A stretch of DNA of 64,000 nucleotides from Pseudomonas sp. IAC-BECa141. GTDB lineage: Bacteria > Pseudomonadota > Gammaproteobacteria > Pseudomonadales > Pseudomonadaceae. The notes under the pieces are model-generated. The model saw nothing but the letters and a program-made list of their open reading frames with translations. It was not told the origin of the DNA and searched no databases. How positions within the stretch are numbered: position 1 is the first letter of the stretch; every line of letters starts with the position of its first letter. Shown here in pieces: positions 2,367 through 25,120 of this stretch. The stretch covers positions 3,534,001-3,598,000 of the forward strand of contig NZ_CP065410.1 of assembly GCF_020544405.1 (NCBI RefSeq), read 5' to 3'. A program made the translations under genes and the position numbers.

Positions 2367-2382
2367 GTATTATGGTATACCA
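2367..2382. promoter_or_regulatory. Putative GntR operator, site A
   Basis: The sequence GTATTATGGTATACCA contains the perfect palindrome TGGTATACCA. Its reverse complement matches site B (3567-3582) at 14 of 16 positions and site D (25105-25120) at 15 of 16. It lies in the divergent region between the DUF1330 gene and ribB, where it could govern both. The binding protein is inferred to be the GntR/FCD product at 571-1323. Confidence 0.72.
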
Positions 2383-2410
2383 CGAATTTCATCCACATCG
2401 AGAGTCCAGC

Positions 2411-3520
2411 ATGGCCTTCAACAGCATCGAAGAAATCATCGAAGATTATCGCCTCGGCAAAATGGTGCTGCTGGTCGATGACGAAGACCGGGAAAACGAA
2501 GGCGACCTGCTGCTGGCTGCTGATCGTTGTACGCCCGAGGCGATCAGTTTCATGGCCCGCGAAGCTCGAGGGCTGATTTGCCTGACTCTGACCGACGATC
2601 ATTGTCAGCGCCTGGGACTTGAGCAAATGGTGCCGAGCAATGGCAGCGTGTTCAGTACCGCGTTCACGGTTTCCATCGAAGCGGCGGTGGGCGTGACTAC
2701 CGGGATTTCCGCAGCCGACCGCGCCTGCACGGTGGCTGCTGCGGTGGCGCCGAACGCTCGCGCTGAAGACCTGGTGCAGCCCGGTCATATCTTCCCGCTG
2801 CGGGCCAAGGAAGGTGGCGTGCTGACCCGCGCCGGCCACACCGAGGCCGGTTGTGATCTGGCGCGGCTCGCCGGGTTCACGCCAGCCTCGGTGATTGTCG
2901 AAGTGATGAACGACGATGGCACCATGGCCCGCCGTCCGGATCTGGAAGTCTTCGCGCGCAAGCACGGGATCAAGATCGGCACCATCGCCGACCTGATCCA
3001 CTATCGCCTGAGCACCGAACACACCATCGAGCGCATCGGCGAGCGGGAACTGCCTACGGTGCATGGCACGTTCCGTTTGATCACTTTCGAAGATCGTATC
3101 GAGGGCGGCGTGCACATGGCGATGGTCATGGGCGAGCTGCGCCGCGAGGAGCCGACGCTGGTGCGCGTGCATGTCATTGATCCGCTGCGGGATCTGGTCG
3201 GCGCCGAGTACAGCGGGCCGACGAACTGGACATTGTGGGCGGCGCTGCAACGGGTCGCGGCCGAAGGCCATGGCGTGGTCGTGGTGCTGGCCAATCATGA
3301 GTCGTCGCAGGCGTTGCTGGAGCGCATTCCGCAATTGACTCAACCGCCACGGCAGTTCAGTCGTTCGCAATCGCGAATCTATTCCGAGGTGGGCACCGGG
3401 GCGCAGATTCTGCAGAACCTGGGCGTCGGCAAGCTGCGCCACCTGGGCCCGCCGCTCAAATATGCCGGTTTGACCGGCTACGATCTGGAAGTGATCGAGA
3501 GCATTCCGTTCACCGAATAA
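2411..3520 (+). CDS. ribB: 3,4-dihydroxy-2-butanone 4-phosphate synthase with degenerate GTP cyclohydrolase II domain (RibBX type)
   Basis: The start chosen is the ATG of [10 protein letters not shown], giving 369 residues; an upstream in-frame ATG at 2372 would run through the operator. The N-terminal RibB half is intact: [11 protein letters not shown] at residues 23-33 and [11 protein letters not shown] at 140-150. It should convert ribulose 5-phosphate to the four-carbon riboflavin precursor. The C-terminal half (about 210-369) aligns with GTP cyclohydrolase II but has no trace of the zinc cysteines normally in GECLTGD..C.C, so that activity is probably lost. It sits beside transport and regulator genes rather than with other rib genes, which suggests a second, inducible copy that boosts flavin supply. 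Confidence 0.9.
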
Positions 3521-3554
3521 TTCCGTTTGCCAGATAGCCGGTAAGGCAAAGTGC

Positions 3555-3591
3555 TTGCACAAAGTTTGGAATACCATAATATGATATTCCA
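3555..3591 (+). promoter_or_regulatory. Promoter with GntR-type operator, site B
   Basis: A -35-like TTGCAC (3555-3560) and a -10-like TAATAT (3577-3582) are 16 bases apart. The 16-bp element TGGAATACCATAATAT (3567-3582) lies between and over them. An inverted copy, ATATTCCA, follows at 3584-3591 and makes a larger imperfect palindrome. From 3562 to 3583 the sequence is the same as in the NCS1 permease promoter read on the minus strand at 24931-24952, and the surrounding -35 regions are alike. Confidence 0.72.
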
Positions 3592-3686
3592 TAGACCGGA
3601 CGACCTGAAAAACCGTCCAGCTACTGCTCCCGACAGGCGGGCAACAACGCAAGCCCGCTCAAAAACACAACAATGAGGGCGTAAAA

Positions 3687-4712
3687 ATGGTGTTGAACAA
3701 AGCTGCAACCGCGATCTTTCTTGCGGGACTGCTGAGCGTGACCGGCCAGGCCGCGATGGCCGCCGAGAGTGTGAACTTTGTCAGTTGGGGCGGTAGCACC
3801 CAGGATGCGCAGAAACAGGCCTGGGCCGATCCGTTCAGCAAGGCCAGCGGCATCACCGTCGTGCAGGACGGCCCGACCGACTACGGCAAACTCAAGGCCA
3901 TGGTCGAAAGCGGCAACGTGCAATGGGATGTGGTCGACGTAGAAGCCGATTTTGCGCTGCGTGCTGCGTCCGAAGGCCTGCTCGAGCCCCTCGATTTCAA
4001 ACAGATCCAGCGCGACAAGATCGACCCGCGTTTCGTCAGCGACTACGGCGTCGGCTCGTTCTTCTTCTCCTTCGTCCTCGGCTATAACGAGGGCAAACTC
4101 GGCGCCAACAAGCCACAGGACTGGAGCGCGCTGTTCGACACCAAGACTTTCCCCGGCAAACGCGCCCTGTACAAATGGCCGAGCCCAGGCGTGCTTGAAC
4201 TGGCTCTGCTCGCCGACGGCGTGCCGGCCGACAAGCTCTACCCGCTGGACCTGGATCGCGCCTTCAAGAAACTCGACACCATCAAGAAAGACATCGTCTG
4301 GTGGGGCGGCGGCGCGCAGTCGCAGCAACTGCTGGCTTCCGGTGAAGCGAGCATGGGCCAGTTCTGGAACGGCCGGATTCACGCTCTGCAAGAAGATGGC
4401 GCACCGGTCGGCGTGAGCTGGAAACAGAACCTGGTCATGGCCGACATTCTGGTCGTGCCAAAGGGTTCGAAAAACAAGGACGCGGCGATGAAGTTCCTGG
4501 CCAGCGCCAGCAGTGCCAAAGGCCAGGCGGACTTCTCCAACCTGACCGCCTACGCCCCGGTCAACGTCGACAGTGTGCAGCGTCTGGACTCGACGCTGGC
4601 CCCGAACCTGCCGACTGCCTACGCTAAGGATCAGATCACTCTTGATTTCGCGTACTGGGCCAAGAACGGTCCGGCCATCGCGACACGGTGGAACGAATGG
4701 CTGGTCAAATGA
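3687..4712 (+). CDS. ABC transporter substrate-binding protein, spermidine/putrescine (PotD) type
   Basis: The 341-residue protein starts with a Sec signal peptide, MVLNKAATAIFLAGLLSVTG..AMAAES, cleaved near residue 27. The mature part has the type-2 periplasmic binding fold of the PotD/iron group: VNFVSWGGSTQDAQKQAW, WDVVDVEADFALRAASEG and VSWKQNLVMADILVVPKG. Ligands in this group include polyamines, opines and amino-acid derivatives. It heads an operon of binding protein, two permeases and an ATPase, with an ATGA overlap into the first permease. The promoter at 3555-3591 carries operator site B. The ligand cannot be assigned. Confidence 0.9.
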   Translation: MVLNKAATAIFLAGLLSVTGQAAMAAESVNFVSWGGSTQDAQKQAWADPFSKASGITVVQDGPTDYGKLKAMVESGNVQWDVVDVEADFALRAASEGLLEPLDFKQIQRDKIDPRFVSDYGVGSFFFSFVLGYNEGKLGANKPQDWSALFDTKTFPGKRALYKWPSPGVLELALLADGVPADKLYPLDLDRAFKKLDTIKKDIVWWGGGAQSQQLLASGEASMGQFWNGRIHALQEDGAPVGVSWKQNLVMADILVVPKGSKNKDAAMKFLASASSAKGQADFSNLTAYAPVNVDSVQRLDSTLAPNLPTAYAKDQITLDFAYWAKNGPAIATRWNEWLVK

Positions 4713-5656
4713 AAATGGCGGCCACCGCGTCCCGTCCCTCCACTGCCACCGGGAGCGCCACGAGCGCTGCCGGCCAGGCTGAAGGCAAAAAGGCGAGTGC
4801 CATGGCGCAAGCCCCGTCCCTCAAGCAACGCTGGCGCGGCGCCGGTAACCTCGCGCCGGCGCTGTTGTTCCTCGGTCTGTTCTTTCTCGCCCCGCTGATT
4901 GGCTTGTTGCTGCGCGGCGTGCTGGAACCGGTGCCGGGCCTTGGCAACTATGAGCAACTGTTTGCCAACTCGGCTTACGCACGAGTGCTGTTCAACACCT
5001 TTTCGGTGGCCGGACTGGTGACGGTGTTCAGCCTGCTACTTGGATTCCCGCTGGCCTGGGCAATCACTCTGGTGCCGCGCGGCTGGGGCCGCTGGATTCT
5101 CAACATCGTGCTGCTGTCGATGTGGACCAGCCTCCTCGCCCGCACTTATTCGTGGCTTGTGTTGCTGCAGGCTTCTGGCGTGATCAACAAGGCGCTGATG
5201 GCGCTGGGCATCATCGATCAGCCGCTGGAAATGGTGCACAACCTGACCGGCGTGGTGATCGGCATGAGCTACATCATGATCCCGTTCATCGTGCTGCCGT
5301 TGCAGGCGACCATGCAGGCCATCGACCCGATGATCCTGCAGGCCGGCTCGATCTGCGGCGCCAGTCCATGGACCAACTTCTTCCGGGTGTTCCTGCCGCT
5401 GTGCCGGCCGGGCCTGGCGTCCGGCGGGTTGATGGTGTTCGTGATGTCGCTCGGTTACTACGTCACCCCGGCGTTGCTGGGCGGGGCGCAGAACATGATG
5501 TTGCCGGAGTTCATCATTCAGCAGGTGCAGTCGTTCCTCAACTGGGGCCTGGCCAGCGCCGGCGCCGCGTTGCTGATCGTCATCACGCTGGTGCTGTTTT
5601 ACGTCTACCTGAAGCTGCAGCCGGAATCCCCGGTTGGCGCCAGTCACGCGAGGTAA
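4709..5656 (+). CDS. ABC transporter permease, PotB type
   Basis: Starting at the ATG that overlaps the upstream stop (ATGA) gives 315 residues; a GTG at 4688 and ATGs at 4697 and 4715 are also possible. After a polar, Ala/Ser-rich leader of about 40 residues there are six hydrophobic segments, beginning with APALLFLGLFFLAPLIGLLL. The EAA loop is GSICGASPWTNFFRVFLPLCRPG at about 217-239, as in PotB. It forms the inner-membrane channel with the product at 5663. The alanine-rich N-terminal extension is longer than usual in PotB and is probably cytoplasmic. Confidence 0.9.
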   Translation: MKMAATASRPSTATGSATSAAGQAEGKKASAMAQAPSLKQRWRGAGNLAPALLFLGLFFLAPLIGLLLRGVLEPVPGLGNYEQLFANSAYARVLFNTFSVAGLVTVFSLLLGFPLAWAITLVPRGWGRWILNIVLLSMWTSLLARTYSWLVLLQASGVINKALMALGIIDQPLEMVHNLTGVVIGMSYIMIPFIVLPLQATMQAIDPMILQAGSICGASPWTNFFRVFLPLCRPGLASGGLMVFVMSLGYYVTPALLGGAQNMMLPEFIIQQVQSFLNWGLASAGAALLIVITLVLFYVYLKLQPESPVGASHAR

Positions 5657-5662
5657 ACCGAC

Positions 5663-6472
5663 ATGCTCCTGACGCCCAATGCCATGAGTCGCCGGATGCG
5701 CTTCGGCCTGTATTTCACCACCGGGCTGATCGGCCTGTTCCTGCTGTTGCCGATCGTGTTCATCGTCCTGCTGTCGTTCGGTTCGTCGCAGTGGCTGGTG
5801 TTCCCGCCGCCGGGCTGGACGCTGAAATGGTACGTGCAGTTCTTCTCCAATGCGGACTGGATGAGCGCAGCGCTGGCCAGCCTCAAGGTCGCCGTGCTGA
5901 CCACGATCTGCGCCGTCGCCCTCGGTTTGCCGACTGCCTTTGCGCTGGTCCGTGGACGCTTCCCCGGCCGGGAAATGCTCTACGGCCTGTTCACCCTGCC
6001 GATGATCGTGCCGCTGGTGATCATCGCCGTGGCGGTGTACGCGCTGTTCCTCAAGCTCGGCTACACCGGGACGATGTTCGCCTTCGTCGTCAGCCATGTG
6101 ATCGTCGCGCTGCCGTTCACCATCATCTCGATCATCAACTCGCTGAAGCTGTTCGATCAGTCGATTGAAGACGCGGCGGTAATCTGCGGCGCGTCACGCC
6201 TGCAAGCGGTGTTCAAGGTGACTTTCCCGGCGATTCGTCCGGGCATGGTCGCCGGCGCCCTCTTTGCCTTCCTGGTTTCGTGGGACGAGGTGGTGCTCAG
6301 CGTGATGATGGCCAGCCCGACCCTGCAAACCCTTCCCGTGAAAATGTGGACCACCCTGCGCCAGGACCTGACGCCCGTGATCGCCGTCGCCTCGACGCTG
6401 CTGATCGGCCTGTCGGTATTGGTCATGGTGATCGCCGCCGCTTTGCGCCGGCGCAACGAAATCAGCGCCTGA
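5663..6472 (+). CDS. ABC transporter permease, PotC type
   Basis: The 269-residue protein has six membrane segments, starting with FTTGLIGLFLLLPIVFIVLL after a short cytoplasmic tail. The EAA loop, DAAVICGASRLQAVFKVTFP at about 173-192, contacts the ATPase. Six bases separate it from the previous permease and sixteen from the ATPase gene, so the four genes form one operon. PotC-type permeases pair with PotB-type ones in importers of polyamines and similar cations. Confidence 0.92.
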   Translation: MLLTPNAMSRRMRFGLYFTTGLIGLFLLLPIVFIVLLSFGSSQWLVFPPPGWTLKWYVQFFSNADWMSAALASLKVAVLTTICAVALGLPTAFALVRGRFPGREMLYGLFTLPMIVPLVIIAVAVYALFLKLGYTGTMFAFVVSHVIVALPFTIISIINSLKLFDQSIEDAAVICGASRLQAVFKVTFPAIRPGMVAGALFAFLVSWDEVVLSVMMASPTLQTLPVKMWTTLRQDLTPVIAVASTLLIGLSVLVMVIAAALRRRNEISA

Positions 6473-6488
6473 GCGCCAGGAGTACAAC

Positions 6489-7643
6489 ATGAGTGCCGTG
6501 ATCAAAGACGCATCCCAGCAGAACGACAAACCCCTGGTCAGCCTGCGCAACCTGAACAAGCACTACGGCGATTTTGCGGCCGTGGACAACATCTCGCTGG
6601 ACATCAGGGACGGCGAGTTCCTGACCTTCCTCGGCTCCAGCGGCTCGGGCAAAAGCACCACGCTGTCGATGCTCGCCGGCTTCGAAACCCCGAGCAGCGG
6701 CGAGATCCTGGTCAACGGCCAGTCGCTGGTGAACGTGCCGCCGCACAAGCGCGACATCGGCATGGTGTTCCAGCGCTATTCGCTGTTCCCGCATCTGTCG
6801 GTACGCGACAACATCGCGTTTCCTCTCACGATCCGCAAACTCGCGGCTGCCGAGCGTGACAAGCGCGTCGATGCGATGTTGAAACTGGTACAACTGGAAC
6901 AATTCGCCCATCGCCGCCCTTCGCAACTGTCCGGCGGCCAGCAGCAGCGGGTCGCCATTGCACGGGCGCTGGTTTACGAGCCACGTATTCTGTTGATGGA
7001 CGAACCGCTCGGTGCGCTGGACAAGAAGCTGCGTGAAGACTTGCAGGATGAACTGCGTCAGTTGCACCGTCGCCTCGGCATCACCATCGTTTACGTGACC
7101 CATGACCAGGAAGAAGCCATGCGCCTGTCCCAGCGCATCGCAATTTTCAGTCACGGCAAGATTGTCGGGCTCGGCAGCGGTTATGACCTTTATCAGAACC
7201 CGCCGAATGCGTTTGTGGCGTCGTTTCTGGGCAACTCGAACTTTCTCAAGCTCAAGGCGCAGGGTAATGCGGCGGCGAGTTTCGAGGGGCAGTCGCTTTC
7301 GATTCGCCTGACGGCCGGATTGCAGACCGGGCAGGATGTTTTGCTGATGGTGCGCCCGGAAAAGGCGTTGGCGTTGAGCGTGCAGCAAGCGAATGACGAG
7401 CCACTGGCGGCGGGTTGGAATGAGGTTTCGGCGAAGGTGGTCGAGGTGTTGTTTCTGGGTGAAAGTCAGACTTGCAGCGTGGTCACATCGGGTGGCACTT
7501 CCATGACGGTCAAGGCGCTATCGGCAGCCGGGATGCCGTTGAAGGCTGGCGATCCGGTGCGGGTTCGCTGGGCGACGGCGGATGCATGTGTCTACACCGA
7601 CTGGGCCGAAAGCGACCTCAACAAGGCCGCCGGATCCCACTAA
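6489..7643 (+). CDS. ABC transporter ATP-binding protein, PotA type
   Basis: The 384-residue ATPase has Walker A GSSGSGKST at 49-57, signature LSGGQQQR at 147-154, Walker B ILLMDEPLGALD at 167-178 and the switch histidine in VTHDQEEA (His205). After residue 240 comes a C-terminal TOBE-like regulatory domain, as in PotA. It is the last gene of the operon and supplies energy for import. No clear terminator follows; a degraded REP repeat occupies the gap. Confidence 0.94.
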   Translation: MSAVIKDASQQNDKPLVSLRNLNKHYGDFAAVDNISLDIRDGEFLTFLGSSGSGKSTTLSMLAGFETPSSGEILVNGQSLVNVPPHKRDIGMVFQRYSLFPHLSVRDNIAFPLTIRKLAAAERDKRVDAMLKLVQLEQFAHRRPSQLSGGQQQRVAIARALVYEPRILLMDEPLGALDKKLREDLQDELRQLHRRLGITIVYVTHDQEEAMRLSQRIAIFSHGKIVGLGSGYDLYQNPPNAFVASFLGNSNFLKLKAQGNAAASFEGQSLSIRLTAGLQTGQDVLLMVRPEKALALSVQQANDEPLAAGWNEVSAKVVEVLFLGESQTCSVVTSGGTSMTVKALSAAGMPLKAGDPVRVRWATADACVYTDWAESDLNKAAGSH

Positions 7644-7667
7644 GGTCTTCAGAAAACAACGCAATCC

Positions 7668-7773
7668 TGTGGGAGCGGCGGTGCGACGATTCGACTTGCC
7701 CGCGAATAGGCCGGCACATTCAACATCAATACTGAATATGCTGACGCCTTCGCGAGCAAGCTCGCTCCCACAA
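7668..7773. repeat. REPIN-like repeat, copy 2 (left arm degraded)
   Basis: The right arm, CGCGAGCAAGCTCGCTCCCACA, is intact. The left arm begins GTGGGAGCGGCGGTGCGACGAT and then diverges, although TTCGACTTGCCCGCGA preserves part of the shape. The spacer keeps the CAACATCAATACTGAA-like core seen in the other copies. It lies between the transporter ATPase gene and the convergent map gene, and is the only such structure available as a transcript end here. Confidence 0.82.
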
Positions 7774-7785
7774 GTCTTGCACCAG

Positions 7786-8577
7786 TCAGTTAATTGGCGG
7801 GTACCCTTCGATCTGATCGGGCCAGGCTGTCAACACCTCAAACCCGTCTTCCGTCACCGCCACCATGTGCTCCCACTGCGCCGACAACGACTGATCCTTC
7901 GTCACCACTGTCCAGCCATCCGCCAGGCTCTTCACATGCCGCTTGCCGGCATTGAGCATCGGCTCGATGGTGAAAATCATCCCCGCCTTCAATTTCAGCC
8001 CCTGCTCCGGGTAACCGTAATGCAGCACCTGCGGTTCATCGTGATAAACCTTGCCGATCCCGTGCCCGCAATATTCGCGCACCACGCTGAACCCTTCTTT
8101 CTCCGCCAGCGTCTGGATCGCATGACCGATGTCACCCAACGTGGCGCCCGGCCGCACGACGCGGATGCCCGCGCACATGGCGTCGTAAGTGGTCTTGATC
8201 AGATGCCGCGCCTCGGGCGTCGGCTCACCGACCACGTACATGCGGCTGGTGTCGCCAAACCAACCGTCCTTGATCACCGCGATGTCGAGATTGACGATGT
8301 CGCCGTCCTTCAACACGCGCTTCGACGGAATGCCGTGGCAGACCACTTCGTTGACTGACGCGCAGACGGTTTTCGGAAAGCCGTGATAACCGACGTTGGC
8401 CGGAATCGCCTTCTGCACATTGACGATGTAGTCGTTGCACAACTGGTCGAGCTGATCGGTGGTGACGCCAGCCTTGACGTGCGGCACCAGCATCGCCAGT
8501 ACGTCAGCAGCCAACTGCGCAGCCACTCGGGATTGGGCGATTTCGGCCTGGGTGTTGATCTTGATCGGGTTTCTCAT
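7786..8577 (-). CDS. map: type I methionine aminopeptidase
   Basis: The 263-residue enzyme removes the initiator methionine from new proteins. Metal ligands are visible: Asp in NLDIAVIKDGWFGD (two aspartates), His in EYCGHGIGKVYHDEP, Glu in MIFTIEPML and Glu in WEHMVAVTEDG. The start chosen is MRNPIKINTQ, whose ATG overlaps the stop of the ParD-like gene (ATGA). Pseudomonads usually also carry a housekeeping map near rpsB, so this is probably a second copy. Pairing with a ParD-like gene is the odd point. Confidence 0.93.
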   Translation of the reverse strand: MRNPIKINTQAEIAQSRVAAQLAADVLAMLVPHVKAGVTTDQLDQLCNDYIVNVQKAIPANVGYHGFPKTVCASVNEVVCHGIPSKRVLKDGDIVNLDIAVIKDGWFGDTSRMYVVGEPTPEARHLIKTTYDAMCAGIRVVRPGATLGDIGHAIQTLAEKEGFSVVREYCGHGIGKVYHDEPQVLHYGYPEQGLKLKAGMIFTIEPMLNAGKRHVKSLADGWTVVTKDQSLSAQWEHMVAVTEDGFEVLTAWPDQIEGYPPIN

Positions 8578-8834: not shown

Positions 8835-8843
8835 GGCAATATC

Positions 8844-8886
8844 CGATACGAATTGTATATGGATCGTATATTAATCGTGTATCGAC
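8844..8886. promoter_or_regulatory. Repeated GTATA/TATAC elements upstream of the ParD-like gene
   Basis: Within 10-50 bases upstream of the ParD-like start there are CGATACGA (8844-8851), TTGTATAT (8853-8860), TCGTATAT (8864-8871) and TCGTGTATCG (8875-8884). ATACGA and TCGTAT form an inverted pair centred near 8857. The AT-rich tract could include the promoter of the parD-like/map operon. Ribbon-helix-helix proteins often bind such repeats in their own promoters, so autoregulation is a reasonable inference. This is part of the 338-base gap between the two divergent operons. Confidence 0.45.
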
Positions 8887-11764: not shown

Positions 11765-12278
11765 GTTCGAGTAGGCGGCCAGTGCTGGTCTCTGGCTTAC
11801 GAGGTTTCTCAGGACTCCCACAGTACAGGCAATGTGCTCTGCTGCTTCACACGGCATAAGGGCTGGAACCCAGCGCGGGGTTCTTTCTAACCGTGTACCC
11901 TTCGGAACGCGCCCAACGCTTCCTCGCTATCCGCTTGCGCATCAGTCTGCGTCTTCGCCTACATGCTTGAGCCTAGCAAACACGCTGCATTGCGCTACGC
12001 GGTTTTTAGACTGATTGTTTTCTAGCGCTGCCCTGCAAGGAAGTTAACCGACTATCGCTTTCACGGCCCGTAAGCCTGCCTCCCGCCAAGGGCGAACTAT
12101 ACTTTTCAGCTGGCTGTCCAGATTTCCTGTAAACCATCGACACCCGTGCACCCTGCGGTGCCCTGTGCCACTCACCAATCTGGTTGACCCCGGGCCGACG
12201 AGCCTTCCGTCAATGATCAAAGATCGAATGACGGATAAAGCTCGGTTGCTGTGTGGCTGATGGGGCGTGGAGAAAATC
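11765..12278. other. Intergenic region, no gene recognised
   Basis: About 510 bases without a convincing reading frame. Short open frames here lack codon bias and ribosome sites. Visible structures are AACCCAGCGCGGGGTT (about 11869-11884) and a 7-bp inverted repeat, TCCGTCA at 12206-12212 with TGACGGA at 12229-12235, about 45 bases before the repeat-protein start. The latter could be an operator or leader hairpin. The segment is less GC-rich than flanking genes and could hold an untranslated leader or a small RNA. Confidence 0.4.
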
Positions 12279-12965
12279 ATGAAGCACACGCTTTGGCCGG
12301 GCCTCGTCCTGGCAGTTGCGGCAACGGTGGCAGTGCCCAATGTCTGGGCTGCGAAGGCGCAGGCATTGGCGTCGGATGGGGCGGATCATGTGGGGGCGGG
12401 GGCGGTGGCTTCCGATGGATCGGATCATGTTGGCGCAGGTGCCGTTGCCTCTGATGGTTCCGATCACGTTGGCGCGGGCGCCGTTGCTTCTGACGGCGCG
12501 GATCACGTCGGCGCAGGTGCCGTTGCTTCTGACGGCGCAGATCACGTTGGCGCAGGCGCTGTCGCCTCTGACGGCGCGGACCACGTCGGCGCAGGTGCCG
12601 TTGCTTCTGACGGCGCGGATCATGTCGGCGCAGGTGCCGTTGCTTCTGATGGCGCGGATCATGTCGGTGCAGGTGCCGTTGCCTCTGACGGCGCGGATCA
12701 CGTCGGTGCAGGTGCCGTTGCTTCTGATGGCGCGGACCACGTCGGCGCAGGTGCCGTTGCTTCTGATGGCGCGGATCACGTCGGCGCAGGTGCCGTTGCC
12801 TCTGACGGCGCGGATCATGTCGGTGCAGGCGCGCTCGCCGCCGATGGCGCAGACAAGGTCGGTGCCAGCCGACTCGCCTACTCCCGCGCAGGCGTCGGTT
12901 CGGACCAGGTGGCTTCCGCCCTCATGAGCGGCAGCTATTCCGACCAGTTCAACAGCCCTCAATAA
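12279..12965 (+). CDS. secreted tandem-repeat protein (13-residue ASDGADHVGAGAV repeats)
   Basis: The start is the ATG after GGAGAAAATC, giving 228 residues. A Sec signal peptide (MKHTLWPGLVLAVAATVAV..VWA) is followed by thirteen tandem 13-residue units. Eleven are ASDG(A/S)DHVGAGAV, the twelfth ends in AL and the last is AADGADKVGASRL. A 29-residue tail ends in SYSDQFNSPQ. There are no cysteines. DG-rich repeats can form beta-solenoids or bind calcium, but no function is known to me. I have a vague memory of pseudomonad proteins with DGS/DGA repeats labelled phage infection protein, which I cannot verify. It is flanked by hairpins and stands alone. Confidence 0.78.
   Translation: MKHTLWPGLVLAVAATVAVPNVWAAKAQALASDGADHVGAGAVASDGSDHVGAGAVASDGSDHVGAGAVASDGADHVGAGAVASDGADHVGAGAVASDGADHVGAGAVASDGADHVGAGAVASDGADHVGAGAVASDGADHVGAGAVASDGADHVGAGAVASDGADHVGAGAVASDGADHVGAGALAADGADKVGASRLAYSRAGVGSDQVASALMSGSYSDQFNSPQ
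12369..12875 (+). repeat. Tandem 39-bp coding repeat, 13 units
   Basis: Thirteen in-frame 39-base units encode the 13-residue repeat. Central units are almost identical and differ mainly at third positions (GAC/GAT, GCG/GCA, GTT/GTC). The first three and last two units are more diverged, the usual signature of homogenisation from the centre. Copy number probably varies between strains. The periodicity also keeps the opposite strand open. Confidence 0.95.
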
Positions 12966-18182: not shown

Positions 18183-19895
18183 ATGATCGAAGTCACTGAA
18201 GTTTCCATTGCCCAATTGCGCGCGGCGCTCGAATCCGGCCAGACCACAGCGGTTGAACTGGTGCAGGCCTACCTGGCGCGCATCGACGCCTTTGACGGCC
18301 CGGGTACCGCCACTGCCCTGAACGCAGTAATCGTGCGAAATCCTGACGCACTGAAAGAAGCGCAGGCCTCGGACGACCGTCGTGCCAAGGGGGAAACCCT
18401 CGGTCCGCTGGACGGCATCCCTTATACCGCCAAGGACAGTTATCTGGTCAAAGGCCTGACCGCCGCGTCCGGCAGCCCGGCCTTCGCCGATCTGGTGGCC
18501 CAGCGCGACGCGTTCACCATCGAACGCCTGCGTGCGGGCGGCGCGATCTGCCTGGGCAAGACCAACATGCCGCCGATGGCCAATGGCGGGATGCAGCGCG
18601 GGGTCTATGGCCGTGCCGAAAGCCCTTACAACGCCGACTACCTGACGGCTCCCTTCGCTTCCGGCTCGTCGAACGGTGCCGGTACCGCCACCGCTGCAAG
18701 CTTCTCGGCATTCGGTCTGGCGGAAGAAACCTGGTCGAGCGGTCGCGGCCCGGCATCCAACAATGGCCTGTGCGCCTACACGCCATCGCGCGGGGTGATT
18801 TCGGTACGCGGCAACTGGCCGCTGACGCCGACCATGGACGTGGTGGTGCCATACGCCCGCACCATGGCTGACCTGCTGGAAGTGCTCGATGTGGTGGTCG
18901 CCGAAGACACCGACACCCGAGGCGATCTGTGGCGCCTGCAACCCTGGGTGCCGATCCCGAGCGTCGCCTCGGTTCGCCCTGCTTCCTATCTCGAACTCGC
19001 GGTGAAAAGTGATGCACTGGCCGGCAAACGTCTGGGCGTACCGCGCATGTACATCAACGCCGACCCCGAGGCCGGCACCAGCGAAGCACCGGGCATCGGC
19101 GGCCCGACCGGGCAGCGCATCAACACCCGCGCCTCGGTAATCGATCTGTGGAAACAGGCCCGTCAGGCCCTTGAGGCCGCCGGTGCCGAAGTGATCGAAG
19201 TGGATTTTCCACTGGTCTCCAACTGCGAAGGCGATCGTCCGGGCGCACCGACCGTGTTCAATCGCGGCATCGTTTCGAAAGAGTTCATGCACCACGAACT
19301 GTGGGATCTGTCGGCCTGGGCGTTCGATGATTTCCTGCGCGCCAACGGTGATCCGAAACTCAATCGACTGGCGGACGTCGACGGCCCGAAAATCTTCCCG
19401 CACGACCCCGGCACACTGCCCAACCGCGAAGGCGACCTCGCCGCCGGCATGGACGAATACGTGCGCATGGCCGAGCGTGGCATCACGCCGTGGGATCAGA
19501 TCCCGACCCTGCCGGACGGCCTGCGCGGCCTGGAAAAGACCCGCAAGCTCGACCTCGAAGACTGGATGGATCGCTTGGGCCTCGACGCCGTGCTGTTCCC
19601 GACCAACGCCGACGTTGCCCCGGCTGACGCCGACGTCAACCCGGCTTCGGCGGACATCGCCTGGAGCAACGGCATCTGGGTCGCCAACGGCAACCTCGCG
19701 ATCCGCCACCTCGGCGTACCGACCGTCACGGTACCGATGGGCGTGATGGCAGACATCGGCATGCCGGTCGGCCTGACCTTCGCTGGTCGCGCCTATGATG
19801 ATTCGACGTTGCTGCGCCTTGCTGCGGCGTTCGAGGCGACCGGTTCGAAACGACGGATACCGCCACGTACGCCAGCACTGGCGACAGGCAAGTAA
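18183..19895 (+). CDS. amidase signature family protein
   Basis: The start MIEVTEVSIAQLR gives 570 residues, longer than the usual 460-510. The N-terminus is typical (LVQAYLARIDAFDGPG.TALNAV), and the catalytic lysine is in GIPYTAKDSYLVKG. The Ser-rich signature is altered: ASGSSNGAGTATAASFSAFG followed by EETWSSGRGPASNN, in place of the usual GGSSGGSAAAVAAG and TDTGGSIRxPA. A serine is available at both catalytic positions, so activity is plausible. It should hydrolyse a carboxamide, but the substrate is unknown. A terminator follows the stop. Confidence 0.87.
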   Translation: MIEVTEVSIAQLRAALESGQTTAVELVQAYLARIDAFDGPGTATALNAVIVRNPDALKEAQASDDRRAKGETLGPLDGIPYTAKDSYLVKGLTAASGSPAFADLVAQRDAFTIERLRAGGAICLGKTNMPPMANGGMQRGVYGRAESPYNADYLTAPFASGSSNGAGTATAASFSAFGLAEETWSSGRGPASNNGLCAYTPSRGVISVRGNWPLTPTMDVVVPYARTMADLLEVLDVVVAEDTDTRGDLWRLQPWVPIPSVASVRPASYLELAVKSDALAGKRLGVPRMYINADPEAGTSEAPGIGGPTGQRINTRASVIDLWKQARQALEAAGAEVIEVDFPLVSNCEGDRPGAPTVFNRGIVSKEFMHHELWDLSAWAFDDFLRANGDPKLNRLADVDGPKIFPHDPGTLPNREGDLAAGMDEYVRMAERGITPWDQIPTLPDGLRGLEKTRKLDLEDWMDRLGLDAVLFPTNADVAPADADVNPASADIAWSNGIWVANGNLAIRHLGVPTVTVPMGVMADIGMPVGLTFAGRAYDDSTLLRLAAAFEATGSKRRIPPRTPALATGK

Positions 19896-19900
19896 ATGCA

Positions 19901-19934
19901 AAACGGCGGGATCAATTGATCCCGCCGTTTTTTA
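19901..19934. terminator. Bidirectional rho-independent terminator
   Basis: AAAACGGCGGGATCA and TGATCCCGCCGTTTT form an almost continuous palindrome with T-runs on both strands. It lies between the convergent amidase and DyP peroxidase genes and overlaps the peroxidase stop. Confidence 0.92.
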
Positions 19935-20963
19935 TCGCTCTGCCAGCTCTTCCAGCAAATCCGCCGAAGGCACGAAGAACAGACTGCCCGTGACGGCCGT
20001 GCTGAAGTCCAGCAAGCGGTCGTAATTGCCGGGCGGCTTGCCAACGAACATGTTCTCCAGCATCTGCTCCAGCGGCTCCGGGGAGCGCGCGTACCCGATG
20101 AAGTAAGTGCCGAATTCGCCTGCCCCTGGCCGGCCGAACGGCATGTTGTCGCGCAGGATCTTCACCTCTTCGCCATCCTTGGTGATGGTCGTCAACGCAC
20201 TGTGGGAATTGCTCGGTTTGACTGAGTCGTCCAGTTCGATATCGGACAGTTTGGTACGCCCGATCACCCTCTCCTGCGCCTCAACCGACAATTCGTTCCA
20301 GGCCTTCATGTTGTGCAGATACTTCTGCACCAGCACGTAACTGCCGCCACTGAACGGCTGATCTTCATCGCCGACCAGAGTGAAATGCTCGGCTTTGCGG
20401 CCGACCGGATTTTCCGTGCCGTCGACGAAACCGATGATGCTGCGCATGTCGAAATAGCGGAAACCCTGCACCTCGTCGGTCACCGTCACGGCGCCGTCCA
20501 GCGCCGACATCAACTGCGTCGCCAGTTCGAAACACAGGTCCATCTGATCGGCTCGAACGTGCAACAGCAAGTCGCCAGGCGTGGAAACAGCCCGCCGCCC
20601 TTCTACACCGAACTCGCGAAAATCATGCAGGGACGCGGGGCGTGGACTGCCGAACAGTCGATCCCATGCGCTGGAAGAAAATCCGCACACGCAGGACAGA
20701 TTTCCCGATGGAACGCGCTTGCCGACCGAGCGCGTCAGGCCCGCTATATCGGCGCACCAGCCACGGACTTTTTCAGCGGCCTCGGCCTCGGCGTTGAGAG
20801 TGGCCACGATGAATATGGCAGCGCTGGTGATCGGGCTGCAGACGGCTTGAGGATCTGGCGTGTCGATGATCGTGACTCCCGAAGTGGTGAACTGGCTCGA
20901 CAGCGAGGTTAGCAAAGAAGCGTTGAACGAAGTATTACCCGCGCCTGCCCTGTCGTCCGACAT
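19932..20963 (-). CDS. DyP-type heme peroxidase
   Basis: The 343-residue protein has the DyP signature GFVDGTENP with its catalytic aspartate. The proximal histidine lies in KPSNSHSALTTI, and the distal arginine region is LRDNMPFGRPG followed by EFGTYFIGYARSP. No Tat signal is present, so it is probably cytoplasmic or in an encapsulin shell, although no encapsulin gene adjoins it. DyP enzymes oxidise dyes and phenolics with peroxide, and some remove or handle heme. The start is uncertain: the ATG at 20963 has no good ribosome site, and the first 45 residues are longer than expected. Confidence 0.9.
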   Translation of the reverse strand: MSDDRAGAGNTSFNASLLTSLSSQFTTSGVTIIDTPDPQAVCSPITSAAIFIVATLNAEAEAAEKVRGWCADIAGLTRSVGKRVPSGNLSCVCGFSSSAWDRLFGSPRPASLHDFREFGVEGRRAVSTPGDLLLHVRADQMDLCFELATQLMSALDGAVTVTDEVQGFRYFDMRSIIGFVDGTENPVGRKAEHFTLVGDEDQPFSGGSYVLVQKYLHNMKAWNELSVEAQERVIGRTKLSDIELDDSVKPSNSHSALTTITKDGEEVKILRDNMPFGRPGAGEFGTYFIGYARSPEPLEQMLENMFVGKPPGNYDRLLDFSTAVTGSLFFVPSADLLEELAER

Positions 20964-21072
20964 TTCGTTTTTAACGAACAATACCCACGAAATAAACGAT
21001 TTTTCTTTGCCGGAAGACTCCTACTAGGATGGCCGCGTCTACCCCGAAAAACATAACGACAGGGAGAACGGC

Positions 21073-22050
21073 ATGCACCCCATCAACATCGGCGAACCCT
21101 GGATGTGGGTCGCCTTCATCGTTTTTGTCCTCGCTATGCTGGCCGTCGACCTGTTCGTCTTCGGTGGGCGCAAGGCGCATCGGGTCTCTGTGCGGGAAGC
21201 CTCATCCTGGGTGATCGCCTGGTGCATGCTGGCGATGGCCTTCGCCGGGTTGCTCTGTTGGTATCTGAACGGCGAATTCGGTCCCGACATCGCCAAGGTC
21301 AAGACCCTGGAATTCCTCACCGGCTATTTGATCGAACAGTCGCTGTCGATCGACAACATGTTCGTGTTCGTGATGATCTTCAGCTACTTCGCCGTGCCGC
21401 CGGAGTTGCAGCGCAGGGTGTTGCTGTACGGCGTACTGGGAGCGATCGTGATGCGCGCGGCGATGATTTTTGCCGGGGTGTGGCTGGTGTCGCAGTTTAC
21501 GTGGCTGCTGTACGTGTTCGGTGTGTTCCTGATCATTACCGGGATCAAGATGTTGATGTTCGCCGATCAGCAGCCAGATCTTGAAAAAAATCCGATCGTG
21601 CGTTGGGCCCGTGGACATTTACGCATCACCAATAGCTTCCACGGCGAGCGCTTTTTCGTGTTGCAAAACGGCGTGCGCTGGGCCACGCCGATGTTTCTGG
21701 TGCTGGTGCTGATCGAGGCCAGTGACCTGATGTTCGCGGTCGACAGCATCCCGGCGATCTTCGCGGTGACCACCGATCCGTTCATCATTTTTACCTCGAA
21801 TATCTTCGCGATCATGGGCTTGAGGGCGCTGTACTTTCTTTTGGCAGACATGGCCGACCGCTTTCATCTACTCAAATACGGGCTGGCGCTGGTGCTGGTG
21901 TTTATCGGTGGGAAGATGACGGTTATGCCGTGGTTTCACATGCCGGTGGAGTGGTCGCTGGCGATTGTCGGCGGGGTGATTCTGACATCGGTGTTGCTGA
22001 GTCTGATCCTGACGAAGGACAAGTCGCCCGAGGAAAGTCAGGCGAAATAA
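21073..22050 (+). CDS. TerC family integral membrane protein (Alx type)
   Basis: The 325-residue protein has nine or so membrane helices with the family's acidic membrane motifs: LAMLAVDLFVFGGR, EQSLSIDNMFVFVMIF and LIEASDLMFAVDSIPAIFAV. These aspartates are thought to bind divalent metal, and Alx proteins export manganese. An AGGGAGAA ribosome site precedes the ATG. The leader is under 100 bases and shows no yybP-ykoY riboswitch features. A terminator shared with the next convergent gene follows. Confidence 0.92.
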   Translation: MHPINIGEPWMWVAFIVFVLAMLAVDLFVFGGRKAHRVSVREASSWVIAWCMLAMAFAGLLCWYLNGEFGPDIAKVKTLEFLTGYLIEQSLSIDNMFVFVMIFSYFAVPPELQRRVLLYGVLGAIVMRAAMIFAGVWLVSQFTWLLYVFGVFLIITGIKMLMFADQQPDLEKNPIVRWARGHLRITNSFHGERFFVLQNGVRWATPMFLVLVLIEASDLMFAVDSIPAIFAVTTDPFIIFTSNIFAIMGLRALYFLLADMADRFHLLKYGLALVLVFIGGKMTVMPWFHMPVEWSLAIVGGVILTSVLLSLILTKDKSPEESQAK

Positions 22051-22052
22051 TG

Positions 22053-22084
22053 GCCGAGGGAGCGAATTCGCTCCCTCGGCTTTT
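22053..22084. terminator. Bidirectional rho-independent terminator
   Basis: GCCGAGGGAGCGAATTCGCTCCCTCGGC is a perfect 28-base palindrome followed by TTTT, between the convergent terC and binding-protein genes. Confidence 0.93.
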
Positions 22085-22087
22085 AAC

Positions 22088-23188
22088 CTATTTATCGGAT
22101 TTGATGCTGGTCCACACCCGGGTCCGCACCCGCTCCAGCTTCTGAGGCAACGGCTGCACCACGTACAGTTTCTTCAGCGCTTCGCTGGTCGGCGTCAGGT
22201 TGGGGTTGCCAGTGATTTCCTTGTTGATCAGCGGCAGCGAATCCTTGTTGGCGTTCGGGTAGCCAAGAAAATCACTGATCGAGGCGATGACCTTCGGATC
22301 GAGCAAGGTGTTGAGGAACTCGTGGGCTTCTTCAACGTTCTTCGCGCTCTTCGGAATGGCGAAGGTGTCGAACCAGATCGGTGCGCCCTCCTTCGGCAAG
22401 CGCCAGTCGACCACCACGCCGTTTTTCGCTTCTTTGGCGCGGTTGCCGAACTGGTAGAAGCTGCCGGAATAACCGATGGCCACGCAGATGTCGCCGTTGG
22501 CGATGTCGGTCATGTACTTGGCCGAGTTGAAGTAAGTGACGTAAGGGCGAACCTTGAGCATCAGGTCCTTGGCTTTCTCATAGTCGGCCGGGTTCTGGCT
22601 GTTCGGATCGAGGCCCAGATAATGCAAGGCCAGCGGCAGAATTTCCGATGGGGAATCGAGCATCGCCACGCCACAGGATTTCAGCTTCTCCATGTTCTCC
22701 GGTTTGAACACCAGATCCCAACTGTCCACCGGTGCATTCTCGCCGAGCGCTGCCTTGACCTTGGCCGGGTTAAAACCGATCAGCACCGTACCGACCATGT
22801 AGGGCACGCCGTACTGGTTACCGGGGTCGTTGGCGTCGAGCAACTTGAGCAACGCCGGATCCTGGTGACTCCAGTTCGGCAGCTTGGACTTGTCGAGTTT
22901 CTGGAACACGCCGGCCTTGATCTGGGTCTCGAGGAACTGGTTCGACGGCACCACCAGGTCGTAGCCGGAGTTGCCGGTCAGCAGCTTGGCTTCGAGGGAT
23001 TCGTTGGTGTCGAAGGTGTCCCAGGTCACTTTGATGTTGCTTTTGGCGGCGAAGTCCTTGGGCACCGACGGCAGAATGTAATCCGCCCAGTTGTACACCC
23101 GCAGTTCGCGCTGTTCGGCCTGCACGGCGCCGGCCAGCAGCGTCAGCCCGCAAACAGTGGCGCCCAGAATGCGTTTCATCGTGACCAT
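22088..23188 (-). CDS. polyamine ABC transporter substrate-binding protein (PotF/SpuD type)
   Basis: The 366-residue protein has a signal peptide (MKRILGATVCGLTLLAGAVQA) and a mature part close to PotF/SpuD: LRVYNWADYILPSV, SGYDLVVPSNQFL, YGVPYMVGTVLIGFNP and WFDTFAIPKSAKNVEEAHEF. Trp and Asp residues at these places line the putrescine/spermidine site in the family. No permease or ATPase gene is adjacent, so it must use a system elsewhere, or that at 4709-7643. GGGGAAA serves as ribosome site for the ATG at 23188; 23179 is an alternative. It lies downstream of the NCS1 permease gene on the same strand, 252 bases and one hairpin away. Confidence 0.9.
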   Translation of the reverse strand: MVTMKRILGATVCGLTLLAGAVQAEQRELRVYNWADYILPSVPKDFAAKSNIKVTWDTFDTNESLEAKLLTGNSGYDLVVPSNQFLETQIKAGVFQKLDKSKLPNWSHQDPALLKLLDANDPGNQYGVPYMVGTVLIGFNPAKVKAALGENAPVDSWDLVFKPENMEKLKSCGVAMLDSPSEILPLALHYLGLDPNSQNPADYEKAKDLMLKVRPYVTYFNSAKYMTDIANGDICVAIGYSGSFYQFGNRAKEAKNGVVVDWRLPKEGAPIWFDTFAIPKSAKNVEEAHEFLNTLLDPKVIASISDFLGYPNANKDSLPLINKEITGNPNLTPTSEALKKLYVVQPLPQKLERVRTRVWTSIKSDK

Positions 23189-23391
23189 ATTGTGTTTCCC
23201 CGAATGCAGCGTGAGTCGATGGTTTTTATGTTCTGTACACGGCAGCGGCTGTCAGATCAGCCAAGGGCAAGGAAGGTGCAGCATTTTGTTGTGGCTTCGA
23301 TTCTTCCTGACAGCGTAGACGCAGCACAGTAGCCCATTGGCCAAAAGGGGATCGAAATGGCCAATTTGCGTGACCGCCGGGATGCGGAAAC

Positions 23392-23422
23392 AACAATGCC
23401 CGACAAAGTGCCGGGCATTGTT
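23392..23422 (-). terminator. Terminator-like hairpin after the NCS1 permease gene
   Basis: AACAATGCCCG pairs with CGGGCATTGTT around a 9-base loop, 19 bases beyond the permease stop. Read on the minus strand it is followed by GTTTCC, a weak T-tract. Confidence 0.7.
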
Positions 23423-23440
23423 TGAGAAGACTGCAGAAGA

Positions 23441-24847
23441 TCAATCAGTAAAACCCAACCGCGCCGCCCTGCTCTGTTGCGTCTGGCCACGGGTCGCCAG
23501 GCAGTAATACAGCGGGCAGGTGACGATCAGGCCGACCAGCCACGACAGGTCCGCGCCTTCCACCAGATTGGCGTACGGCCCGACATACAACGATGTATTG
23601 GCGAACGGCAGCTGCACGATGATGCCGATGAAGTAGGCAATGATCGCGTGTAGGTTGAAGCGCCCATAAATGCCGCCGTCGGCGCGGAAGATCGAGGCGA
23701 TGTCGTAACTGCCGCGCTTGATCAGGTAGAAGTCGATCAGATTGATCGACGCCCACGGTACCAACACCAGCAGCAACGCCAGAATCAGCCCGATGAACTC
23801 GGAAATGAAATCCGCCGATGCCCCCAGCGCCACCACACAGCAGCTCGCCAGCACCACGCTCGACAAGATCACCCGCACCTTGATGCTTGGCGTCCACTGG
23901 CTGGCGAAGGTCTGAATCGAGGTGATGATCGACAGCACCGCGCCATACAGATTCAGCGCGTTGTGGCTGATGATGTTGAGCAGGAACAGCACCATCAGAA
24001 TCGGCCCCAGCCAACCGGTGGACTGCTTGACCGCCGCCATCGCTTCGGTGCCTTCCGGCGTCGCCAAAACCGCCACTGCGCCGAAGGTGAACGACAGAAT
24101 CGTGCCCAGGGTGGCGCCCAGATAAGTCGCGATAAAGGGTTTGCCGATCCCGATGTCCGCCGGCAGGTAACGGGAATAGTCGGAGACATAGGGCGAGAAA
24201 CTGATCTGCCAGATGATCCCCAGCGACACCGTCGCCAGCCAACCGGACAGATTGAAGCTGCCTCGGGTGAAGAAGTCCGCCGGTAACTCATGGGCAAAGA
24301 TGTAGATGAAACCGGCCAGCAGCGCACTGCCCATCACCCAGGTGCCGATGCGGTTGAGCGTGTGGATGAAGTTGTAGCCGATCACGCCGATGGCGGTGGC
24401 ACTGAGGGCGCCGATCAGGATGCTCAGCGGCGCCGGTACCGACGGCGCAATGCCGACGATGGACTTGCCGGCCAGCACAATGTTGGAAATAAAGAAGCCG
24501 ATATAGATGATCGCCGCGAAGAACACGATCAACAGCGCACCGTAACGCCCGAACTGGCCCCGACTCTGGACCATCTGCGGAATGCCCATGCGCGGGCCTT
24601 GCGCCGACGCCAGGGCGATCACCACGCCGCCGATCATGTGCCCCAGCGCAATCGCCAGCAGCCCCCAGAACAGGTCGAGATGAAACACCTGAACCACCAT
24701 GGCGCCGGTGACAATGGGCAGTGGCGCAATGTTGGTGCTGAACCAAAGGGTGAAAAGGTCGCGGGCCTTCCCGTGGCGTTCCGCGAGTGGGACGTAGTCG
24801 ACCGTGTGATTCTCGATCAACGGATCTTGCCGGGACATCTGGGACAT
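23441..24847 (-). CDS. NCS1 family permease (purine-cytosine permease-like)
   Basis: The 468-residue protein has about twelve membrane helices and the NCS1 landmarks FTLWFSTNIAPLPIVTGAM, QMVQSRGQFGRYGALL, FSPYVSDYSRYLP and HNALNLYGAVLS. NCS1 carriers import cytosine, uracil, allantoin, hydantoins, thiamine or pyridoxine with Na+ or H+. It is strikingly like the protein at 44510-45925 along its whole length. Its promoter (24932-24960) carries operator site C, identical over 16 bases to site B before the ABC importer. The flavin reductase and monooxygenase genes are divergent from it, so it probably imports their substrate. Confidence 0.92.
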   Translation of the reverse strand: MSQMSRQDPLIENHTVDYVPLAERHGKARDLFTLWFSTNIAPLPIVTGAMVVQVFHLDLFWGLLAIALGHMIGGVVIALASAQGPRMGIPQMVQSRGQFGRYGALLIVFFAAIIYIGFFISNIVLAGKSIVGIAPSVPAPLSILIGALSATAIGVIGYNFIHTLNRIGTWVMGSALLAGFIYIFAHELPADFFTRGSFNLSGWLATVSLGIIWQISFSPYVSDYSRYLPADIGIGKPFIATYLGATLGTILSFTFGAVAVLATPEGTEAMAAVKQSTGWLGPILMVLFLLNIISHNALNLYGAVLSIITSIQTFASQWTPSIKVRVILSSVVLASCCVVALGASADFISEFIGLILALLLVLVPWASINLIDFYLIKRGSYDIASIFRADGGIYGRFNLHAIIAYFIGIIVQLPFANTSLYVGPYANLVEGADLSWLVGLIVTCPLYYCLATRGQTQQSRAARLGFTD

Positions 24848-24931
24848 AAAAATGAACTCGATTGGGTCTGTTCTTATCGTTGTATGAAGCCAAACCGGGG
24901 GTGCTTCTTGGCCGCCCCTCAGATGCAGACC

Positions 24932-24960
24932 ATATTATGGTATTCCAAACTTTTCACAAG
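24932..24960 (-). promoter_or_regulatory. Promoter with GntR-type operator, site C
   Basis: On the minus strand TTGTGA (24959-24954), 16 bases and TAATAT (24937-24932) make a promoter. The operator TGGAATACCATAATAT spans 24947-24932. It is identical to site B and has the same spacing to the -35 and -10 boxes. It lies 85 bases before the NCS1 start. The rest of the 325-base divergent region 24848-25172 holds site D and no other recognised element. Confidence 0.72.
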
Positions 24961-25093
24961 ACTGATCCGCTTTTTGCGACGGCATCTGATCCGGCATCCT
25001 CCCTGATAGCCAGCGTTCACGGCTAGAGCAAAGCCCTGTAAATGCTGACTTTCCGACGGATGAACCACGTTTATCGTTTCACCAAAAAAGCGC

Positions 25094-25120
25094 TTGCAAT
25101 CGATGTATTACGGTATACCA
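25094..25120 (+). promoter_or_regulatory. Promoter with GntR-type operator, site D
   Basis: GTATTACGGTATACCA (25105-25120) differs from site A by one base and contains GGTATACC. A TTGCAA box at 25094-25099 could be the -35, with the operator covering the -10 region, as in sites B and C. It lies 52 bases before the flavin reductase start. Confidence 0.68.

Follow-up and report, generated by a model that had tools for sequence, protein, structure and literature searches.

A palindromic element and a GntR-family regulator in a probable trigonelline-type catabolic regulon of Pseudomonas

The tgn cluster and pathway for degradation of trigonelline (N-methylnicotinate) in Acinetobacter baylyi ADP1 were reportedly described by Perchat et al. 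in 2018. Here we examine a 64,000-nucleotide stretch of DNA from Pseudomonas sp. IAC-BECa141 (NZ_CP065410.1, genome positions 3,534,001-3,598,000; the window), in which copies of one 16-bp element stand upstream of genes for importers, flavin synthesis and a two-component flavin-dependent oxygenase. Sites and genes are given in window coordinates unless "genome" is stated. We propose that the sites are probably operators of a FadR-subfamily GntR repressor, encoded at 571-1323 and here called TgnR for convenience, which would control a trigonelline-type catabolic regulon.

Trigonelline is a plant betaine that is present in root nodules too, according to an excerpt of PMC12489286. Three further sources state that the TgnA/TgnB pair opens the trigonelline ring (PMC8269262), that a DUF1185 protein is homologous to TgnF, the stimulator of TgnE in A. 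baylyi (PMC7913881), and that wild type Sinorhizobium meliloti grows on trigonelline while a strain without pSymA does not (PMC4207669). For FadR-subfamily GntR regulators, an excerpt of PMC4494728 gives as the consensus operator an A/T-rich palindrome with TKGT and ACMA boxes and 2-3 nt between GT and AC. No tgn repressor or operator is described in the open-licence literature that we searched; subscription literature lay outside this search, so we do not claim that these are unpublished.

On plasmid NZ_CP094644.1 of Acinetobacter sp. PK01, genes are annotated in the order DUF1330, GntR, DUF1185, hydrolase, tgnA, tgnB, tgnC, cytosine permease, hypothetical protein, succinate-semialdehyde dehydrogenase and carboxymuconolactone-decarboxylase-family (CMD) protein, and a cluster in A. 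baumannii has a similar layout. All of these families are matched in the Pseudomonas regulon, save the linked succinate-semialdehyde dehydrogenase and the hypothetical protein: both systems have a GntR regulator, DUF1330 and DUF1185 proteins, a hydrolase, a reductase, an oxygenase, an aldehyde dehydrogenase, a cytosine/NCS1 permease and a CMD protein, and the Acinetobacter cluster carries the same operator upstream of its DUF1185 gene. Unlike the Acinetobacter cluster, the Pseudomonas genes are divided among several operons, here over 29 kb and much further apart in some relatives. They include an ABC importer, a RibB paralogue, a Nudix protein and a second short reductase as extras, the reductases have 161 rather than 310 residues, no succinate-semialdehyde dehydrogenase is linked, and the oxygenase has diverged (51% identity). 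The breakdown pathway is therefore already known in kind, since its gene set and operator match tgn clusters. A preliminary description of this DNA had seen one regulon of import and flavin-dependent breakdown, which the importers and oxygenase pair behind shared sites bear out; its remark that it could match the pathway to none described is not supported, as a cluster annotated tgnA/tgnB/tgnC has nearly the same genes.

The 16-bp element and the genes behind it

A pattern scan found TGGWATACCRTAATAY without mismatch at four positions in the window, where the preliminary description had placed it, and at a fifth position to the left of the window:

2367-2382, minus strand: site A, putative operator; TGGTATACCA core at 2373-2382, between the divergent DUF1330 and ribB genes
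3567-3582, plus strand: site B, putative operator; overlaps the -10 of a promoter-like TTGCAC-N16-TAATAT, upstream of the ABC importer
24932-24947, minus strand: site C, putative operator; overlaps the -10 of a promoter-like TTGTGA-N16-TAATAT, upstream of the NCS1 permease
25105-25120, minus strand: site D, putative operator; upstream of the flavin reductase-monooxygenase pair
Genome 3,530,500, 3.5 kb left of the window: fifth site, putative operator; upstream of the DUF1185-to-Nudix string

The 16-mer covers one side of a palindrome whose core reads TGGTATACCA. Sites B and C have the same 16 bases, each within TTGnnn-N16-TAATAT, in keeping with the -35, -10 and 16-base spacing first read there. 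With up to three mismatches allowed, the window holds 6 matches against 0.34 expected, and 100 shuffles gave at most 2. Exact copies number five in the whole genome (6,221,060 bases), at genome positions 3,530,500, 3,536,367, 3,537,567, 3,558,932 and 3,559,105, all inside 29 kb and all at regulon genes; beyond these, the genome-wide scan returned no match with fewer than two mismatches, and thus none of the many unrelated matches that would have spoken against the element. The earlier judgement that the agreement exceeds chance is upheld, and the regulon as first drawn stands for the window genes but also includes genes to the left. TGGTATACCA occurs twice in the genome, both times in the regulon region. 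The looser core TGGWATACCR has 29 genome matches against 11 for a control, so the core by itself is unspecific.

The genes in the window that lie behind these sites are:

120-512, plus strand: CMD protein (Pfam CMD), in the DUF1185-to-Nudix string
571-1323, plus strand: GntR/FCD regulator, likely of the FadR subfamily (PF00392, 62.3 bits; PF07729, 86.5 bits)
1325-1888, plus strand: Nudix hydrolase (Pfam NUDIX, Zn_ribbon_Nudix), in the same-strand string
2049-2345, minus strand: DUF1330 protein (Pfam)
2411-3520, plus strand: RibB-type paralogue, DHBP synthase with a GTP cyclohydrolase II-like tail (PRK12485, 815.8 bits, cut-off 693)
3687-4712, plus strand: ABC importer solute-binding protein (Pfam SBP_bac_8)
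4688-5656, plus strand: ABC importer permease 1, start codon unsure (Pfam BPD_transp_1)
5663-6472, plus strand: ABC importer permease 2 (open reading frame; similar genes in related clusters)
6489-7643, plus strand: ABC importer ATPase (Pfam ABC_tran, TOBE_2)
23441-24847, minus strand: NCS1-family permease (Pfam Transp_cyt_pur)
25173-25658, plus strand: flavin reductase RED1, 161 residues, TgnA-like over the flavin reductase domain (Pfam Flavin_Reduct)
25726-26769, plus strand: luciferase-like monooxygenase (LLM), TgnB-like (Pfam Bac_luciferase)

The likely ribB start is 2411 rather than 2372, which lies inside site A; the family match begins at residue 14 of the frame from 2372. Behind the fifth site, genes for DUF1185 (PF06684), alpha/beta hydrolase, aldehyde dehydrogenase, second short flavin reductase, CMD, GntR/FCD and Nudix proteins follow one another on one strand, starting left of the window and extending into it. 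Their spacing and shared strand suggest one transcript, in which case the regulator, with its gene in the string behind the fifth site, would be under its own control. Downstream of the NCS1 permease, and on its strand, is a PotF-like binding protein gene (22088-23188, minus strand) without a site of its own.

Conservation of the sites and the candidate regulator

Site positions, the exclusivity of close matches, conservation and gene content are read directly from sequence. In a sample of 35 same-genus relatives, which are akin to one another and so are not 35 independent trials, 21 have sites (at most one mismatch) and 14 have none. Orthologues of GntR (E at most 1e-25; at least 81% identity) and of the monooxygenase (E at most 1e-60; at least 84% identity) were found in precisely the 21 with sites, and neither was recovered from the 14 without. 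All but one of the 117 sites in these 21 relatives lie at most 450 bases upstream of the start of a regulon-gene match: 29 before NCS1/reductase genes, 28 before DUF1185, 23 at DUF1330/ribB, 21 before the ABC importer, 10 before the monooxygenase and 5 before a reductase alone. The sole exception, with one mismatch, is away from regulon genes (G021:C41:94437). In several relatives (G015, G019, G029) the operons are widely separated on the chromosome and have retained their sites. Among the best 80 of 583 monooxygenase relatives, named Pseudomonas, 79 loci have sites (L102 does not), and all 196 sites in these loci precede regulon-type genes. A member of the same family but another genus (G128) has five sites, upstream of the same genes.

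One-mismatch matches in 6 of 21 genomes of other genera (G036, G041, G042, G046, G051, G052) were dismissed as background, the reversed control giving 5 in 21. Their 3-kb loci contain no regulon genes nearby, and an ABC ATPase near one of them (L034) is 34% identical and generic. Within the regulon, relatives G001 and G008 carry, close to a site, a second binding-protein gene of the ABC type (63-65% identical), and an additional site is present in G231 (L160:5858, L166:14033, L154:12210); the regulon seems to be still undergoing reshuffling in relatives.

When matches on opposite strands are merged, the 116 regulon sites become 106 distinct sites, 20 of which, across the 21 relatives, belong to the class of site A. 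Hardly any variation is seen in the TGGWATACCR core and in one TAATAY arm; the second arm is less well conserved. The constancy of the strong arm is partly built in, because the sites were collected with a pattern that contains it. The first box is TGGT in 70 sites and TGGA in 36, so that about a third, mainly of the NCS1 and ABC classes, have an imperfect first box. Some sites are near-palindromic over 22 bases (L161), and a site in Rhizobium is perfectly so. Read as TGGT-AT-ACCA, TGGTATACCA fits the FadR-subfamily TKGT and ACMA boxes with 2-nt spacing.

Many sites coincide with a promoter-like TTGnnn-N16-TAnnnT. Overlap was found for 21 of 21 sites of the ABC importer class, 29 of 29 of the NCS1/reductase class, 27 of 28 of the DUF1185 class and 4 of 5 before a reductase alone, against a background of 0.9% at random places. 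A stricter consensus promoter scan, confined to 2300-3700, did not call a promoter at site B. The position of the sites, overlapping the -10, points to repression.

Outside the family of the window genome we read 17 clusters, which were hand-picked from match lists rather than drawn at random. To be counted, an operator had to match TGGTATACCA exactly or with a single mismatch and to agree at 6 or more of the 12 arm positions; this rule was set after some of the sites were known. Such an operator is present in 14 of 14 proteobacterial clusters with a linked, recognisable GntR gene (two Acinetobacter, Leisingera, S. meliloti, Pantoea, Klebsiella, two Caballeronia, Rhizobium, Mesorhizobium, Azospirillum, G165, G159 and G231); in 40 rounds of dinucleotide shuffling, a mean of 0.15 and a maximum of 1 of the 14 had one. 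No operator was found in the Aminobacter cluster, with no GntR gene seen at the locus, in the 9.8-kb G315 contig, from a genome without a GntR match at E 1e-25, or in the Arthrobacter cluster, with a GntR protein 31% identical. At the Aminobacter locus (L211, 4496-17919), a DUF1185-reductase-hydrolase-RidA / dehydrogenase-oxygenase cluster is accompanied by a GlxA-type regulator and by genes of fatty-acid type; it perhaps represents a different pathway on the same plan.

As long as the case rested on four copies, two of them identical 16-mers, chance agreement or a dispersed repeat without regulatory function could be entertained. However, exact copies in the genome are confined to regulon promoters, and sites are kept with the genes across species, missing without them, and present in distant clusters. 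We reject this explanation on the shuffles, the genome exclusivity, the 116 of 117 sites and the 14 of 14 distant clusters, and give it next to no credence.

The GntR/FCD gene at 571, already named as the likely regulator in the preliminary description, follows the sites closely, and the proposed check of site conservation in orthologous loci and co-occurrence with GntR came out in its favour. Helix-turn-helix (HTH) domains are often the better-conserved part of regulators. Compared with the window GntR, 12 distant GntR proteins are 57-85% identical in the HTH domain (residues 18-82) and 25-49% identical in the ligand domain (residues 90-215), a combination of conserved HTH and drifting ligand domain that is expected from a shared operator. 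The alignment held 16 proteobacterial sequences, our own included, and that of Arthrobacter, which stood outside the invariant count; the G165 GntR was absent from it, and its linkage rests on match lists and locus reading. The GntR HTH and FCD domains and the fit of the palindrome indicate that the protein is likely a FadR-subfamily member. It resembles regulators of that subfamily in its domains, A/T-rich palindrome, TKGT/ACMA boxes and 2-nt GT-AC spacing, and differs in the TGGTATACCA core, the TAATAY arms and the target set; no such regulon is named in the excerpt of PMC4494728.

Could the sites instead belong to another regulator? Binding by this GntR protein is deduced from sequence, and some sites lie far from the GntR gene, in several relatives elsewhere on the chromosome. 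However, among the 35 relatives the 21 with sites are precisely those with the GntR gene, all 14 of the distant clusters grouped by a linked GntR gene of this family have the operator (though linkage defined the 14), the motif fits the FadR-subfamily consensus, and the three clusters without a site are those in which GntR is unseen or only 31% identical. We consider a different regulator very improbable, and it is highly likely that the protein encoded at 571-1323 binds the sites.

Kinship with trigonelline clusters and the likely substrate

The gene products behind the sites resemble Tgn proteins to differing degrees. RED1 and LLM are adjacent (25173-26769), in the manner of a TgnA-TgnB two-component oxygenase, and LLM is 51% identical to an A. 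baumannii enzyme whose 94.8% identical relative is annotated tgnB. At the family level, the aldehyde dehydrogenase is TgnC-like (54% identical to that of A. baumannii) and the alpha/beta hydrolase TgnD-like. The DUF1185 protein (PF06684, 235.6 bits), the sole copy in the genome, is 57% identical to the A. baumannii one and corresponds to TgnF. A 74% identical CMD protein is encoded in the A. baumannii cluster, DUF1330 genes are linked in Acinetobacter, Pantoea and Klebsiella clusters, and NCS1 permeases 50-57% identical to ours occur in the A. baumannii, Caballeronia Lep1P3, Pantoea and Klebsiella clusters. Among 120 listed relatives of LLM, four are named by JGI as flavin-dependent trigonelline monooxygenase, oxygenase component, and others have broader names; in the corresponding list of 120 for the hydrolase, JGI gives a single protein (P0169, 88%) the name (E)-2-((N-methylformamido)methylene)succinate hydrolase, and six other JGI rows are pimeloyl-ACP methyl ester carboxylesterase. 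These names are transferred and weak by themselves, and gene content is the stronger argument.

The S. meliloti 1021 cluster is located on pSymA. Like the Pseudomonas regulon it has a GntR gene (43%), an operator (one core mismatch), DUF1185, hydrolase, reductase and oxygenase genes, two aldehyde dehydrogenases and an ABC importer with a 61% identical binding protein; solute-binding proteins 60-63% identical to ours occur in four alphaproteobacterial clusters and one Caballeronia cluster. Unlike the Pseudomonas genes, it forms one compact cluster, and the 19 kb read contain no RibB, NCS1, CMD, DUF1330 or Nudix match. Plasmid pDCT5 of Arthrobacter dokdonellae shares with Pseudomonas a 79% identical oxygenase, GntR, two copies of DUF1185, hydrolase, aldehyde dehydrogenase, cytosine permease, flavin reductase, Nudix and a flavin-supply gene. 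It differs in having a riboflavin kinase rather than RibB, a tautomerase and a succinate-semialdehyde dehydrogenase, a GntR only 31% identical, and no such operator that we could find.

Taken together, this gene content suggests that trigonelline is quite probably the true substrate in Pseudomonas. Several observations weigh against this assignment or against the proposed regulation. The Acinetobacter tgn names are annotation, and the comparison was made with these rather than with the assayed A. baylyi ADP1 proteins. RED1 (161 residues) is 36% identical to a 310-residue A. baumannii reductase, and the match of the hydrolase to its A. baumannii counterpart is weak (35%). No succinate-semialdehyde dehydrogenase (TgnE) gene lies in the DUF1185-to-Nudix string, where relatives have a second aldehyde dehydrogenase between the reductase and CMD genes, so we class the locus as a tgn-type variant and not as a complete tgn cluster. 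Homologues of the PK01 enzyme (62% and 61%) lie at genome 213,365 and 3,606,734 without a close site, and the relatives with a second aldehyde dehydrogenase in the string are G001, G008, G010 and G165. Other pSymA genes could be behind the S. meliloti trigonelline phenotype. The promoter arrangement accompanies just 1 of 23 DUF1330/ribB sites and 1 of 10 monooxygenase sites, and at up to three mismatches the genome has 45 matches to TGGWATACCRTAATAY against 18 to the reversed pattern, so that weaker additional targets are possible. Finally, in a midpoint-rooted tree of 29 monooxygenase rows, the Pseudomonas LLM falls into a group with actinobacterial enzymes (100/99), separate from an Acinetobacter-rhizobial clade (98/94), with G231 and G165 near the Pseudomonas-actinobacterial group (95/73).

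The separation of the LLM groups, at about 51% identity to A. baumannii and 79% to Arthrobacter, raises an alternative in which the regulon and its GntR switch are the same, but the Pseudomonas and actinobacterial enzymes open a different pyridine or N-heterocycle, such as another N-methylated pyridine carboxylate or an unmethylated one. The second short reductase, Nudix and RibB are likewise not among the matches or annotations of the two Acinetobacter clusters. Trigonelline breakdown releases methylamine, which the cell would have to deal with. Methylamine-type oxidase genes adjoin the tgn cluster of PK01, and such genes lie beside the G159 cluster too; the window genome has just one homologue, 36% identical and unlinked. 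This fits a pathway used without breaking methylamine down, a different route, or a different substrate. On the other side, the same operator, partner families and importer types are found on both sides of the oxygenase split, and the aldehyde dehydrogenase and DUF1185 protein are 54% and 57% identical to the A. baumannii ones. A different substrate is thus unlikely, though the idea keeps some weight. The genes beside the PK01 cluster (L246:1-6407) are sarcosine-oxidase-like, folD and purU genes, possibly for handling methylamine and formate; G159 has a 62% homologue of a gene from this region at most 5 kb from its cluster (G159:C1:2041190-2044093). Homarine is an isomer of trigonelline. It was set aside as a substrate, as TgnAB is argued, in an excerpt of PMC8269262, to be unlikely to act on it; the literature searched offered no homarine pathway for comparison.

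Importer and flavin-supply genes vary among the clusters. The NCS1 importer is found in the A. baumannii, Pantoea, Klebsiella and one Caballeronia cluster, the ABC importer in S. meliloti, Rhizobium, Mesorhizobium, Azospirillum, G159 and another Caballeronia cluster, both in the window genome, and neither in the Leisingera stretch. The RibB paralogue is the second PF00926 copy in the genome; the other, at genome 5,467,738, is 56% identical to it. A ribB-type gene is linked in G128 and G231 as well. With RibB in Pseudomonas and riboflavin kinase in Arthrobacter, where a Nudix gene is present too, a flavin-supply gene seems to have joined such clusters at least twice, and flavin supply may be the reason for RibB in the regulon. 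A similarly unlikely extension of the different-substrate alternative would treat the enzymes of Pseudomonas and the actinobacteria as a ring-opening system of their own, built on the tgn plan but directed at another pyridine betaine or N-heterocycle. Substrate-induced, repressor-controlled flavin synthesis (RibB, or the Arthrobacter riboflavin kinase) would be an integral part of it, since a two-component oxygenase takes its reduced flavin from the free pool. Window positions 1-30000 contain no Rfam match. The sole FMN riboswitch match in the genome, at 4,627,100, is not at the other RibB (5,467,738); as it is at neither RibB, we do not claim that the window RibB escapes such feedback. That match (L244) precedes a 169-residue open reading frame that by eye resembles a second lumazine synthase, not ribB.

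Elsewhere in the window, an exported-looking protein (12267-12965, plus strand) has 12 near-identical 13-residue units of the ASDGADHVGAGAV type, and a 3295-residue open reading frame (27111-36998, minus strand) perhaps encodes a giant adhesin.

Predicted regulation and its meaning

For a trigonelline-type regulon under TgnR, we infer binding, repression, transcript limits, inducer and substrate as follows. Without inducer, a GntR dimer would sit on TGGTATACCA over the -10 regions of its targets and block the promoters. The dimer would let go once a pyridine betaine enters the cell or an early product forms. Induction would then yield the two importers, ABC and NCS1; the second RibB, supplying flavin; and the flavin reductase and luciferase-like monooxygenase (TgnA/TgnB-like), which would open the ring. 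Also made would be the aldehyde dehydrogenase, alpha/beta hydrolase and DUF1185 proteins (TgnC/TgnD/TgnF-like), together with the second reductase and the CMD, Nudix and DUF1330 proteins, and, through the string behind the fifth site, the regulator itself.

The operator, present in alpha-, beta- and gammaproteobacterial clusters, would be a genome-readable marker for trigonelline users. It points to the likely regulator and to both candidate importers, and may offer a sensor part. In addition, a catabolic regulon with its own flavin-supply gene would make cofactor supply to two-component flavin oxygenases directly testable.

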